Positions 50,222 through 55,192 of a stretch of 64,000 bases of DNA are shown piece after piece; the first letter of the stretch is position 1; the number at the start of each line of letters is the position of its first letter. The translations under genes and the position numbers were made by a program. The stretch comes from Thiovibrio frasassiensis (lineage in GTDB: Bacteria; Desulfobacterota; Desulfobulbia; Desulfobulbales; Desulfurivibrionaceae): positions 2,261,530 to 2,325,529 of the forward strand of contig NZ_JAPHEH010000001.1 in the NCBI RefSeq assembly GCF_029607905.1, written 5' to 3'. Under the pieces are notes generated by a model that searched no databases, was not told the DNA's origin, and saw nothing but the letters and a program-made list of their open reading frames with translations.

Positions 50222-52279
50222 ATGCCCAAAAAGATTTTGGTGGTGGACAACCATCCATTGATCCTTGAAATCATGTCCAACTTTCTGGAAAAGGATGGCC
50301 ATGAGGTGCGTGTTGCCCAGGATGGTCTTTCGGCCCTGGATGTCCTTGATGCGTTTGTTCCGGATATCATGTTTGTCGATCTGGTTATGCCCAATATCAG
50401 CGGAGACAAGCTCTGTCGCATTGTTCGCAGCATGCCGCATCTGCACGGGGTATTTATTGTCATCCTCTCCGCCATCGCCAGAGAAGGGGAAACCGATTTT
50501 CTGTCTTACGGCGCCGATGCCTGCATTGCCAAGGGGGCAACCAAGAATCTCTTCCTCCATGTGCAAGAACTCATTGCCAATTCCGACAAGCAGCCATCCC
50601 GTGAGCCAATAATCATCGGGATTGAGGGTATCTACCAGCGAGAAGTCACCAAGGAGCTGTTGTACTCGCAAAAACATCTCGAGTTGGTTCTTGACCACAT
50701 GTCGGAAGGTGTGGTCCATTTTACCCACGCCCAGAAAATCATCTATGTCAATGCCAGCGCTCTTGCCTTGTTTGGTCAGCCCGAAGAGAAACTTCTTGGC
50801 GCAAACTTTCCCGACCTTTTTACCGAACCATATGCCTCTGCCGTGCGCCTTTTTGTCGAGGCGGCGAGCCAGCAGCCCGTGTGCGCGGGGGAGGATGAAG
50901 AAATTCTTCTCGGCGCAAAGCGGCTGTTGCTTAATTTTCTCGCCATCCCGGAAGAGGAGAACGGAGCGATCCTGGCCTTGCTTCGTGATATCACCAAGCG
51001 CAAGGAGGATGAATCGCGGATGCAGCAGTATAGCGATCATCTTTCCAGGCTCGTTGCGGAACGGACCCACAGCCTGACCCAGACAAACGAACAACTGCAT
51101 AAGGAAATCGCCGAACGGTCAAAGGTTGAAAAGAGTCTGGCCCGGGCGCATCGGCGTCTGCTCACGGTGCTCGACAGCCTAGACGCGATTATTTATGTGG
51201 TCAATATGACCAGCCATGAGATTCTCTTTATGAATCGTTATGCTCGGGAGATTTTCGGGGAAGGTGCCGGCCGGATTTGCTGGACGGTCATGCAGTGCGG
51301 ACAGGATGGCCCCTGTGCTTTCTGCAGCAGCGAAAAGGTGAAGGCCGTCAATGACTCCAAACAAGGTCGGAGCGGGGTCTATGTCTGGGAAAATCAGAAT
51401 ACCGTCACCGGCCGTTGGTATGAGCATCATGATCGGGCTATTAAATGGATGGGAGATATTCGGGCAAAACTCAGTATCGGCACGGATATTACCGAACGAA
51501 AAAACGAAGAAAACCGGGAGCGGGAGGCACGGGAACTTCTTGAATTACGGGTAGGAGAGCGCACGGCCGAACTGGAAAAGACCTACCGGCAGCTGCTGCA
51601 TGCGGAAAAATTAGGTGCGGTTGGTAAGCTGGCCGCTTCCATTGCCCATGAATTCAATAATCCCATCTGCGGCATCCGCAATGTTCTGGACGGCTTGCAG
51701 CGACATAGCAAGCTTGAGGGGGAGAATGTCTTGATGGTGCAGCTGGCCATCCGGGAGTGCGAGCGCATAGCCAAGCTTACCAAGGATCTGCAGAGTTTTA
51801 ATCGTCCGACCAGCGGCATAGAGGCGTCGGTGGATGTGCATGCCGCCCTGGAGGATATTCTCCTCCTGTGTCGAAAGAATCTCAAGAATAATGGCATCTC
51901 CTTGATCAAGGAATTTGCGCTCTCCTTGCCACGGATCCAAGCGGTGGAGGACCAGCTCAAGCAGGTGTTTCTCAATCTTCTCACCAACGCCGAAGAGGCG
52001 ATTGTCGGGGGAAAAGGCACCATAACCGTGCGGACGGAGTGCCGGGATGGATATGTCGCGGTGCAGTTTCAAGACACCGGACATGGGATTGCCGCGGAGG
52101 ATCAGCCCAAGATTTTTGAGCCTTTTTTTTCCACAAAATCAGCGGTCAAGGGCACCGGGCTTGGCCTGGCAGTCAGTTACGGTATCGTGACCAGGCACGG
52201 TGGGACAATCGAGGTTGAGAGCTCTTCCGGTATCGGCTCCACCTTTACTGTTTTTTTGCCGGTGGAGGGGCGGACATGA
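50222..52279 (+). CDS. Hybrid sensor histidine kinase (REC-PAS-PAS-HisKA)
   Basis: The 685-residue protein starts with a receiver domain (about 1-120; ILVVDNHPLIL, FVDLVMPNISG, AKGATK). Two PAS regions follow (about 155-270 and 310-430; the second holds CGQDGPCAFC). A HisKA domain with SIAHEFNNPICG (phospho-His) and an HATPase domain (DTGHGIAAEDQ, GTGLGLAVS) complete it. It is soluble. AAGGGGA precedes ATG 50222. It overlaps its cognate regulator by four bases. Confidence 0.93.
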   Translation: MPKKILVVDNHPLILEIMSNFLEKDGHEVRVAQDGLSALDVLDAFVPDIMFVDLVMPNISGDKLCRIVRSMPHLHGVFIVILSAIAREGETDFLSYGADACIAKGATKNLFLHVQELIANSDKQPSREPIIIGIEGIYQREVTKELLYSQKHLELVLDHMSEGVVHFTHAQKIIYVNASALALFGQPEEKLLGANFPDLFTEPYASAVRLFVEAASQQPVCAGEDEEILLGAKRLLLNFLAIPEEENGAILALLRDITKRKEDESRMQQYSDHLSRLVAERTHSLTQTNEQLHKEIAERSKVEKSLARAHRRLLTVLDSLDAIIYVVNMTSHEILFMNRYAREIFGEGAGRICWTVMQCGQDGPCAFCSSEKVKAVNDSKQGRSGVYVWENQNTVTGRWYEHHDRAIKWMGDIRAKLSIGTDITERKNEENREREARELLELRVGERTAELEKTYRQLLHAEKLGAVGKLAASIAHEFNNPICGIRNVLDGLQRHSKLEGENVLMVQLAIRECERIAKLTKDLQSFNRPTSGIEASVDVHAALEDILLLCRKNLKNNGISLIKEFALSLPRIQAVEDQLKQVFLNLLTNAEEAIVGGKGTITVRTECRDGYVAVQFQDTGHGIAAEDQPKIFEPFFSTKSAVKGTGLGLAVSYGIVTRHGGTIEVESSSGIGSTFTVFLPVEGRT

Positions 52280-52887
52280 CCGAAAAAGCGAGCCGGTGGC
52301 GAAAGAATATACTGGTGGTTGATGATGAAGAGATCATTCGCCGCACCCTGTGCCGGGATGTTGAGGAAATGGGCTATGCCGTCACTGCGGTTGCCGACGG
52401 CAAAGCTGCGATTGCAGCCCTGCAGGAGCATTATTACGATCTGGTGCTGACCGATCTCTGTATGGAAGGGATGTCGGGGATAGAAGTACTGAAGGGGGCA
52501 AAAGAGAGGAGCTCTGATATAGGAGTAATTATCCTTACGGGATTTGGGGATATCACTTCGGCCATTGAGGCTTTGCGAAACGGAGCCGATGATTATTTGC
52601 TCAAACCTTATGTGTATGCGGATCTGGCTCTGCGCCTTGGGAATTGCCTTGAAAAGCAAGAGATGAAAAAACGGCTGAAGGTGTATGAGGACTTTCTTCC
52701 CATTTGTTCAGTGTGTAAAAAAATCAGAAACGACAAGGGAAAAGAGCCGGGTAGCGGGCAGTGGCAGAGTGTCGAAGAATACCTGCAAAAAGAAGCAGGG
52801 GTGTTGCCATCGCATTCCTATTGTCCTGACTGTTATAAAGAGGCTATGCAGGAGCTCCATTCCTACGTCTCAGTGCATAAAAAATAA
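52276..52887 (+). CDS. Response regulator with C-terminal Cys-rich domain
   Basis: The 203-residue protein has a receiver (about 10-130; VVDDEEIIRR, LVLTDLCMEGMSG, LKPYVYADL) then a linker and a C-terminal segment FLPICSVCKKIRNDKG..CPDC. That segment, with two CxxC pairs, is a small module often seen at the end of sensor proteins and is likely a zinc or cofactor site. It overlaps the hybrid kinase gene by four bases (ATGA), so they are a pair. Confidence 0.92.
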   Translation: MTEKASRWRKNILVVDDEEIIRRTLCRDVEEMGYAVTAVADGKAAIAALQEHYYDLVLTDLCMEGMSGIEVLKGAKERSSDIGVIILTGFGDITSAIEALRNGADDYLLKPYVYADLALRLGNCLEKQEMKKRLKVYEDFLPICSVCKKIRNDKGKEPGSGQWQSVEEYLQKEAGVLPSHSYCPDCYKEAMQELHSYVSVHKK

Positions 52888-53065
52888 AGCAACTTTCTCT
52901 CTTTGTCTGGGAGATTGCGGATATTGTTCCCGCAACACCTTTTTGCCTGCCTCCCATTGAAACGGACAGTGACTGTGTGCTGACCCGTATTTTTTCCGTA
53001 TTGTGCGTTGTATTTTCAGTGTGCTAGGGTGCTTAATCCTTACAACCCAACGCCGGGAAAGATAG

Positions 53066-53290
53066 ATGAATGATGAGATGAAGGAAGAGATCAGTGCCCC
53101 TCTCTGCACAAAGGCCCATGTCTGCAGGGAGAAAACTATCTATTGTCGCCCGGCATATCCCATAGATGGCGATACTTTTTATTTTGCTGGCCGGGGGGAT
53201 GAGGATTGCTCCTACCGGAAAAGGTATGGGAGCCTTCACACCTGTGCGTGTCCGGTTCGTCTGGAAATCTACAAGCGGTATAAAATCTGA
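53066..53290 (+). CDS. Small cysteine-rich protein
   Basis: The 74-residue protein has six cysteines (C14, C20, C27, C49, C60 and C62) in motifs such as YCR, EDCSYRKRYG and HTCACPVRLEIYKRYKI, which look conserved rather than random. There is no signal peptide. A weak GGGAAAG site lies before the ATG at 53066. I do not recognise a named family. It may bind metal or a cofactor. It faces the next small gene on the other strand. Confidence 0.6.
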   Translation: MNDEMKEEISAPLCTKAHVCREKTIYCRPAYPIDGDTFYFAGRGDEDCSYRKRYGSLHTCACPVRLEIYKRYKI

Positions 53291-53365
53291 CCATCCCTTT
53301 CCGTCTTTTTCTCTCGTCTCTTTATCTGTGCAATCAAGAAAAGTGTCAGCCTGTATGGGGAATGA

Positions 53366-53590
53366 TTAAGAAGCCTGTTCCTGGTAAAGGCAGTCGCAGA
53401 CCTTCTCCTGCCACTGTTCGATCTGCTCCCGATACGGTTCTACCGGAGATTCCATTCCGCACACCGTGCAGAGTACCGACCCGTTATGTCAGCGTCCGGA
53501 AAGGAGCGCCTCGCCCCCGCAGAAAATGCAGACAAGCTGCAGTTGCGGGCAATCTGCTGCGGCTGGTTTGGTGTGCTTGGCTTGAGACAT
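53366..53590 (-). CDS. Candidate selenoprotein: Cys-rich protein read through an in-frame TGA
   Basis: ATG at 53590 opens a frame of 33 codons that meets TGA at 53491-53489; reading on in the same frame gives 40 more residues to TAA at 53368-53366, in all 74 residues. Both halves look coding: CIFCGG (C21/C24) and LCTVCGME (C41/C44) would make a zinc-ribbon-like pair, with the TGA at residue 34 in SGR-TGA-HNG. Starting 16 bases after the TGA is a 7-bp stem (TCTGCAC/GTGCGGA) with a GGT loop 23 bases away, matching the bacterial SECIS layout. The ATG has no strong ribosome site. Alternative: a Cys codon mutated to TGA, i.e. a pseudogene. Confidence 0.6.
53456..53472 (-). promoter_or_regulatory. 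Candidate bacterial SECIS hairpin
   Basis: On the minus strand TCTGCAC and GTGCGGA form seven pairs (one G-U) around a GGU loop. The loop is 23 bases after the TGA; a G in the first two loop positions and this distance are typical for bacterial SECIS elements that recruit SelB. Confidence 0.5.
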
Positions 53591-53718
53591 GGCTCCACGC
53601 TGCTCTCTGTTTTTTGGGGGGTGTCTGATTGGTGGTGTCTGGAGCTGAAAATACGTCAGGTTCTTGAAAAAGCCTATCTGTTTTTCTCTGATGCTGCAAG
53701 AGCGAGGACGCAACCCCT

Positions 53719-53736
53719 AAAGTGAAAAATCACTTT
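53719..53736. promoter_or_regulatory. Perfect inverted repeat before the sigma-54 regulator gene
   Basis: AAAGTGA-AAAA-TCACTTT is a perfect 7-4-7 inverted repeat 92 bases before the regulator start. It could be an operator or a hairpin. The rest of the 237-base gap upstream shows no gene. Confidence 0.4.
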
Positions 53737-53827
53737 GCAAGGTGCAGGGAGCGTGCTAGTCTGGCAATGCCTCCGATGGATGAGAGGCTCAAGCCCGCTG
53801 CCGCCATTTTCCTGAGAAAAATCTGAG

Positions 53828-55192
53828 ATGACAGAAAATACTTCGCAAAAAATTCGCATCTATATCCTCGACGATGAAATCGTTACAGTTCGGCGCCTTG
53901 TCCAGGCCCTGGGCAAGGATGGCTACGAGGTGGAGGGTTTTGTCACCGCCTCGGAGGCGATGGCGCGTTTTTCCGAAGTTCCGGCGGATGTTCTGGTTAC
54001 GGATGTGCGTCTCAACGATGCCGACGGCCTTGATATCTTGCTGCGGGTTACCGCATTGGCCCCGGCAACCAAGGTTATCTTGATGACCGGCTATGCCTCG
54101 GTCGATCATGCTGTCCGGGCCATGAAGGCTGGAGCCTATCACTACCTTGCCAAGCCTTTTCGGCTTGAGGAGCTGCGCAACGCTGTACGCGATGCTCTGC
54201 AAGGCGGCGGGCTGTCCGGCACCCTTGAGTCCGAGTCCGGACTTGCCGATCGTTTCGCCGGCATAATCGGCCGTTCCCCTGCCATGCTCGAAATCTTCAA
54301 AACCATCCGCCAGATCGCGCCGCTGAACTGTAACGTGCTTATTCAGGGGGAAAGCGGCACCGGCAAGGAATTGGTGGCCAAGGCTCTCCACAGTACCAGC
54401 GGTCGCGGTCAGCATCCCTTTATCCCATTTAATTGCGGGGCATTCAGTGAAGAATTGGTGGCCAACGAGCTTTTCGGCCATGAGAAGGGCGCCTTTACCG
54501 GCGCGGTGAGCACCAAGCTGGGGTTGCTTGAGGCGGCCAATGGCGGCACCGTTTTTCTCGATGAGGTTGGCGAGATGCCCATCCCCATGCAGATCAAACT
54601 GCTGCGGGTTATCCAGGAGCGGACCTTGCTCCGGGTGGGCGGCGTCGCCCCGGTCAGTATCAATGTGCGGCTCATTGCCGCGACCAATCGGGATATCGAG
54701 AAGATGATCGCCGCCGGCGAGTTCCGTCAGGATCTTTTTTACCGCCTTAAGGTGGTGATGATTAATATCCCGCCGCTTCGCAAACGGCGGGAGGATATCC
54801 CGCTGCTTGTTGAATATTTTGTCGCGCAAATTGCTACGCAGTTCGGTAAACCCGTGCCGGAAATCGCCTCGGATTTTCTGGATGCGCTTTCCTCGTATAC
54901 CTTCCCCGGAAACGTCAGGGAACTGCAGAATATCGTGGAGCGGGCAGTGGCCCTTTCCCGTGAGTCGGTTCTCACGGCCAGGGATCTTCCCCCGGATATC
55001 TTTTTTGGGGAAATTCAGCCCCCGGTACCGGAAAAAAACGCCAGCCACCTGAAGGCTCTGGAGCAGGAGCATATCAGCGAGGTATACCGGCGTACCGGCT
55101 TCAACCAGACGGAGACTGCTCGTCTGCTTGGTATTTCCCGCACCACCCTGTGGCGGCGGCTCAAGGATCTTAACTTTTTTTCCGAGAAATAG
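53828..55192 (+). CDS. Sigma-54-dependent response regulator (NtrC type)
   Basis: The 454-residue protein has a receiver (about 8-125; ILDDEIVTVRR, VTDVRLNDADG, KPFRLEEL), an AAA+ sigma-54 activator core (about 140-380; GESGTGKEL, the GAFTGA loop that contacts sigma-54, and DEVGEMP) and a Fis-type HTH at the end (ETARLLGISRTTLWRRL). It drives transcription from -24/-12 promoters when phosphorylated. A palindrome and such a promoter lie directly after the gene, so its target is probably the next operon. Confidence 0.95.
   Translation: MTENTSQKIRIYILDDEIVTVRRLVQALGKDGYEVEGFVTASEAMARFSEVPADVLVTDVRLNDADGLDILLRVTALAPATKVILMTGYASVDHAVRAMKAGAYHYLAKPFRLEELRNAVRDALQGGGLSGTLESESGLADRFAGIIGRSPAMLEIFKTIRQIAPLNCNVLIQGESGTGKELVAKALHSTSGRGQHPFIPFNCGAFSEELVANELFGHEKGAFTGAVSTKLGLLEAANGGTVFLDEVGEMPIPMQIKLLRVIQERTLLRVGGVAPVSINVRLIAATNRDIEKMIAAGEFRQDLFYRLKVVMINIPPLRKRREDIPLLVEYFVAQIATQFGKPVPEIASDFLDALSSYTFPGNVRELQNIVERAVALSRESVLTARDLPPDIFFGEIQPPVPEKNASHLKALEQEHISEVYRRTGFNQTETARLLGISRTTLWRRLKDLNFFSEK

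Follow-up and report, generated by a model that had tools for sequence, protein, structure and literature searches.

Within the window, as we call the whole 64,000-nucleotide stretch of DNA analysed here, a small gene on the minus strand almost certainly encodes a selenoprotein, as judged from comparison with its relatives. The joint explanation that we favour, and consider very probably correct, is a small stand-alone selenoprotein of what we term the GxU branch, in which a hairpin guides selenocysteine (Sec) to residue 34 of a zinc ribbon and Sec serves in redox chemistry or metal binding. The first-pass annotation had put forward a selenoprotein on seeing a 74-codon frame broken by one TGA between two Cys pairs. 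The TGA is indeed the sole interruption of that frame, with CIFC before it and CTVC after it, and the proposal is borne out by retention of the TGA in nearly all relatives (81 of 83 loci), selection on the codons after it, a covarying hairpin and the presence of the Sec machinery. The features of the gene are compiled in Table 1. A scan for promoters and terminators returned no sigma-70-like promoter and two terminator-like sites (expected 0.8, sd 1.2).

Table 1. Positions of the predicted selenoprotein gene and its elements in the window.
Feature	Position	Strand	Details
Predicted selenoprotein gene	53366-53590	minus	ATG at 53590, TAA at 53368-53366; 74 residues with TGA read as Sec
UGA codon read as Sec, residue 34	53491-53489	minus	TGA in 34/34 strong homologs
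First CxxC knuckle, CIFC, residues 21-24 (C21, C24)	53519-53530	minus	at least 90% conserved in a 32-member alignment
Second CxxC knuckle, CTVC, residues 41-44 (C41, C44)	53459-53470	minus	both Cys invariant in 32 members
Cys65 in the predicted C-terminal helix, candidate partner of Sec34	53396-53398	minus	Cys counts among members and structure model
SECIS-like hairpin, 7-bp stem	53456-53472	minus	5′ arm 53472-53466, loop GGT 53465-53463, 3′ arm 53462-53456

Conservation of the TGA codon among homologs

Conservation analysis of 58 genomes, comprising the source genome and its relatives, revealed a strong homolog (E ≤ 1e-9) in 34 of them. Each is interrupted by a single TGA and by no further stop, so that the several further disruptions in relatives named beforehand as a sign against a selenoprotein are absent from all 34; the next-best matches have E values of 0.017 or weaker. 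Within the genus, the gene was not found in two of 17 genomes (G008 and G012), both of which are about 85% complete. A scan of contigs from named genomes confirmed nine loci out of 57 stretches, all nine with TGA at the site; they are labelled Deltaproteobacteria or Desulfobulbaceae, and one (L041) Pseudomonadota.

Of 395 genomes of the phylum searched with a profile, 54 gave a match at E ≤ 1e-3; TGA is present in 51 of these 54 rows, and Cys stands at the site instead in the rows of G092 and G434. Two matches were not taken as family members, namely G344, one of the 51, where the place is held by a gene of the NF041197 branch, the sister branch discussed below, and G037, a chance match (E 2.3e-4) inside a 1047-residue frame. 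An additional TAG or TAA is listed in five rows of this search (G145, G201, G110, G073 and G410); since the Met of the frame directly follows the stop in L087, L088, L090, L095 and L100, the extra stop precedes the start.

When all 83 loci are taken together, 81 have TGA as the site codon and two have TGC, encoding Cys; the site is therefore Cys or TGA in every homolog of the set, as had been expected of a Sec position. The rarity of the Cys forms suggests that Sec cannot easily be substituted in this protein, and such a small stand-alone protein is a handy test of why bacteria retain selenium. All 83 loci have Gly two residues ahead of the site (GRU in the window protein). The motifs are spaced as CxxC-x9-site-x6-CxxC, but L041, L101 and L110 have x10. 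Among 15 loci of the genus (105 pairs), dN/dS is 0.33 in the 14 codons before the TGA and 0.24 in the 33 codons after it; the codons 3′ of the TGA are under purifying selection. At the same time, TGA is an ordinary stop in this genome and no general sense codon: it terminates 21 of the 46 long frames of the window (mechanically called frames of at least 200 codons, at least one of which is the shadow of an opposite-strand gene) and also ends 12 of the first 32 family members.

A SECIS-like hairpin downstream of the UGA

Bacterial SECIS elements lie within a usual range of distances from the UGA and follow a rule for G in the loop. In the window, the loop starts 23 nt from the UGA and begins with GG, and the codons of the second CxxC knuckle double as part of the hairpin. 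The 7-bp stem and the GGT loop were already part of the first-pass annotation and are found as described there, but its distance of 23 bases after the TGA holds for the start of the loop, the stem starting at 16 bases.

Taken alone, the window hairpin is not unusually stable. Its folding energy is unexceptional compared with dinucleotide shuffles (z −0.78; 38 of 200 fold equally well) as well as with synonymous recodings (z −0.45), and single-sequence folding energy was dropped as evidence. That the hairpin rises above chance follows from covariation and synonymous constraint across relatives rather than from its own folding energy. Over all loci, the region 3′ of the TGA has a mean z of −1.07 against synonymous recodings (p ≤ 0.05 in 15 of 83), compared with −0.44 in the upstream control region (7 of 82) and 0.07 further downstream (5 of 82). 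The two Cys forms score alike (z −1.09 and −1.22), and one of them, L114, still makes at least five of the seven pairs, so that folding energy and pair measures fail to separate Sec genes from Cys genes.

Among 78 distinct TGA members, 63 make at least five of the seven pairs, 13 have a hairpin about 5 bases closer to the UGA, and two (L103 and L134) fit neither class well and were retained in the alignment of 65 stems, the classes having been sorted post hoc once one lineage was seen without the first hairpin. In this 65-row alignment, 93.4% of the cells are paired versus a shuffled mean of 85.6, and 32 cells changed on both sides versus a shuffled mean of 8.7, with the caveat that related sequences may outscore shuffles without any structure. 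The innermost pair alone is C-G in 37 rows, G-C in six, G-U in five, A-U in four, U-A in one and unpaired in 12, and slid versions of the stem pair far worse. The number of stem pairs with two-sided changes is three, a measure that is neutral because 207 of 500 shuffles reach it, and RNAalifold draws the five outer pairs and no more. Synonymous divergence (pS) is 0.14 in the hairpin codons, versus 0.53 in the codons after the hairpin and 0.35 before the TGA. By these comparisons, the putative SECIS stem is conserved with compensatory changes.

The nearer hairpin, GGTRAG-GTGY-CTYRCC, is shared by L100, L102, L111, L116, L118-L120, L124, L126, L129, L130, L132 and L133. In this lineage, 100% of the cells are paired and one pair swaps between A-U (seven members) and G-C (six). 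The swapped pair joins the third base of a Val codon to that of a Leu codon, with GTG accompanied by CTC and GTA by CTT in all 13, and the gene is a clean example of synonymous covariation inside a SECIS. The covariation score of the lineage was equalled by one of 500 shuffles, while further pair types are rarer than in shuffles. In these 13 members the SECIS would have relocated by about 5 bases within a conserved protein. An Rfam search of positions 53000-54000 gave two matches only, both far under the gathering scores.

Selenium machinery and alternative readings of the TGA

The genome passed the check for sel genes that had been proposed along with the candidate: besides tRNA-Sec (72.5 bits, cut-off 47) and SelB (375.4 bits, cut-off 242.25), it encodes SelA (616.5 bits) and SelD (378.1 bits), both above their cut-offs. 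SelB, with Sec-tRNA and guided by the hairpin, would insert Sec at codon 34. The SelD gene (G000:C1:1039542-1040465, L142) itself carries one in-frame TGA, which is known for some SelD proteins. The SelB cut-off was passed by 47 of the 58 genomes and by 28 of the 34 that have the selenoprotein gene. All six gene-bearing genomes below it are drafts of at least 140 contigs; G002, G009 and G020 contain partial matches, and those in G004, G044 and G049 look to us like other translation factors by length and score. tRNA-Sec was found in G004, G009, G044 and G049; in G002 and G020, where 150 of 315 and 150 of 382 candidates were scored, respectively, none was detected at E ≤ 1e-7.

Two other explanations of the TGA were considered. 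Gene decay, with a former Cys codon mutated to TGA, would fit the TGC seen at the site codon of two homologs, but is extremely unlikely given that the TGA is retained in 81 of 83 loci, that the codons following it are under purifying selection and that both Cys forms sit inside the Sec branch of the tree. We read the gene as one for a selenoprotein rather than a decaying one because of this selection together with the single TGA of each homolog, the restriction of the site to TGA or Cys, the conserved hairpin and the Sec machinery. Alternatively, the TGA could be decoded as Trp or some other residue, or be passed by leaky readthrough, and here the residue itself is invisible to sequence comparison. 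Against such decoding, which we regard as very improbable, stand the many frames terminated by TGA in this genome, Cys as the sole alternative codon meaning at the site, and the covarying hairpin with the Sec machinery present.

Relation to NF041197 and paralogs

No Pfam family matched the window protein above its cut-off. The nearest model, NCBIfam NF041197 ('dual CXXC motif small (seleno)protein'), gave 31.1 bits (E 2e-7), below the curated cut-off of 40. All 32 branch members scanned match NF041197 at E ≤ 1 (best 1.3e-10), and the GxU-branch gene of G282 exceeds the cut-off with 43 bits. Owing to scores below the NCBI cut-off, naming based on NF041197 would miss the window gene and most other genes of the branch among those compared with the model. 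Profile-profile comparison of the GxU branch with NF041197 (E 1.7e-8) aligns both CxxC motifs and the Sec column. The branch alignment used for the family scans, the 395-genome profile search, the structure model, the profile-profile comparison and one of the searches against solved structures contains 32 of the 83 loci. A tree of 101 rows was built from all loci but one, whose start was too short (82 of 83), and from 19 of the 30 NF041197 loci fetched. It separates the GxU branch from the NF041197 branch with a support of 100/99 and places both Cys forms within the GxU branch; it rests on just 50 columns, and many of its internal nodes lack resolution.

The first-pass annotation knew of no selenoprotein family like this one, a statement that is not supported, since NF041197 is a clear relative and two selenoprotein entries are assigned to it in a 2026 review: OS_HP3, with an RxU motif, and hypothetical protein DW, with GxU (SMF39960.1) (PMC13188914). 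The 2025 deep-Sep study describes DW in two Desulfosarcina, mentions TGA homologs, a number of homologs with Cys and SECIS-like structures, and notes that its method failed to pick up an OS_HP3 already known from one of these Desulfosarcina (PMC12013277). An earlier review assigns SMF39960.1 to OS_HP3 (PMC9312934); as the two reviews use this accession for different entries, the printed naming of DW and OS_HP3 is unsettled. Literature searches for 'dual CXXC' selenoprotein, OS_HP3 and NF041197 returned nothing beyond these three papers.

The window gene belongs to the GxU branch beside NF041197, which probably corresponds to DW. Like DW, its predicted product is a small selenoprotein with no named function, a GxU motif, a relation to NF041197 and a SECIS-like structure, and the likeness rests on the GxU motif and the family relation. 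In contrast to the number of Cys homologs printed for DW, only two of 83 loci have Cys here, and for this reason we slightly lowered our confidence in the filing. With NF041197 and OS_HP3, the window protein shares the CxxC-x9-Sec/Cys-x6-CxxC spacing and the Sec/Cys exchange; these differ from it in another C-terminal ending and in the RxU motif of OS_HP3, which is replaced by GRU in the window protein. A listed but little-studied kind of small selenoprotein, present in many relatives, was already known; new here are the branch matches in 54 of the 395 phylum genomes, nearly always with Sec, and also the two hairpin placements, the Cys that often occurs in the C-terminal helix, and a paralog with Cys encoded by the same genome. 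This paralog (G000:C1:7876-8034, L059) belongs to the NF041197 branch with 78 bits. The source genome pairs RxC with GxU, and G092 pairs RxU with GxC.

Predicted structure and possible role of Sec34

The AlphaFold2 model has a mean pLDDT of 83.6, with 90-96 over residues 21-60, and consists of strands at residues 27-31, 38-41 and 47-49 followed by a helix at 51-73. In the model, where Cys replaces Sec34, this residue lies at the start of a short turn linking strands one and two. Fold searches against solved structures gave weak zinc-ribbon matches (best Foldseek E 0.16, best Z 3.3), and the lack of a closer fold in these searches excludes nothing. Most likely, the product is a zinc ribbon of the form CxxC-x9-Sec-x6-CxxC followed by a helix, in which the four Cys would hold zinc and Sec would sit in the β-hairpin turn between the knuckles.

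Of 82 members (L128 was excluded because its contig ends early), 72 have a Cys between Sec+28 and +38, most commonly at +31 (45 members); it is absent in the other 10, and its position varies from Sec+29 to +37. Cys frequency is 89 of 902 in this interval of Sec+28 to +38 and 7 of 1158 between Sec+14 and +27; the comparison is rough, since some positions fall beyond the stop. These counts suggest the helix Cys as a partner with which Sec34 might form a bond. The most likely function of Sec is that of a reversible redox or soft-metal-binding group, a role in the zinc ribbon to which we give an even chance. A Sec-Cys switch specifically is a tentative proposal, and equally tentative is the fuller picture of the GxU branch as a family of its own, near-obligate for selenium and common across the phylum, with a selenenylsulfide switch between Sec in the turn and Cys in the helix, an RxU paralog alongside that bears Cys or Sec, and a shift of the SECIS by about five bases in one lineage with the protein unchanged.

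Two further views of the product were weighed against this one. It could be a phage-derived restriction alleviation protein of the Lar type with a chance Sec codon. The two-CxxC zinc-ribbon pattern is common to both, the window protein weakly matches the Lar models (14.8 bits for PF14354 of Pfam, 18.4 for TIGR03655 of NCBIfam), and among the 32 members 22 reach E ≤ 1 against PF14354 (best 7.2e-5); yet the window scores lie far under the cut-offs of 28.6 and 39.6, and no phage relative was found, neither by tblastn against 50,697 phage records (no match at E ≤ 0.01) nor by one pattern search of viral contigs (seven stretches matched, none confirmed), which renders a Lar protein highly unlikely. 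Plasmids gave no match at E ≤ 0.01, and PHROGs a single match with E 0.13. The protein might also be a real selenoprotein whose zinc ribbon binds a nucleic acid or protein partner, with Sec sensing selenium or redox state without being catalytic. Elf1, RNA polymerase subunits and other zinc ribbons do occur among the weak sequence and fold matches, the neighbours of the gene are varied, and a response-regulator-like frame is divergent to it in all 14 loci of the genus examined, but this neighbour is confined to the genus and the window protein passes no Pfam or NCBIfam cut-off; we regard such a sensor as possible but doubtful.

Gene neighbourhood

For 82 of the 83 loci (all but L015), neighbouring frames of at least 90 residues lying up to about 1.5-2 kb away were grouped into clusters, and no partner gene common to the lineages was found among them. 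The names of neighbours rest on one scanned member apiece (window 53828-55189, L094 and L133). In the window, the divergent regulator frame of the genus (53828-55189) matches NtrC-type regulators, staying under each single-family cut-off. Eight loci (L094, L096-L099, L104, L106 and L121) have a convergent gene for a membrane protein of 385-386 residues, named DsrP of DsrMKJOP from the scan of L094 alone, and a TPR-protein gene divergent to the selenoprotein gene. A topoisomerase-I-like frame lies upstream in six loci. Nearby in the window, a short response regulator (52276-52887) has a tail with CSVC and CPDC, a zinc-ribbon-like pattern.
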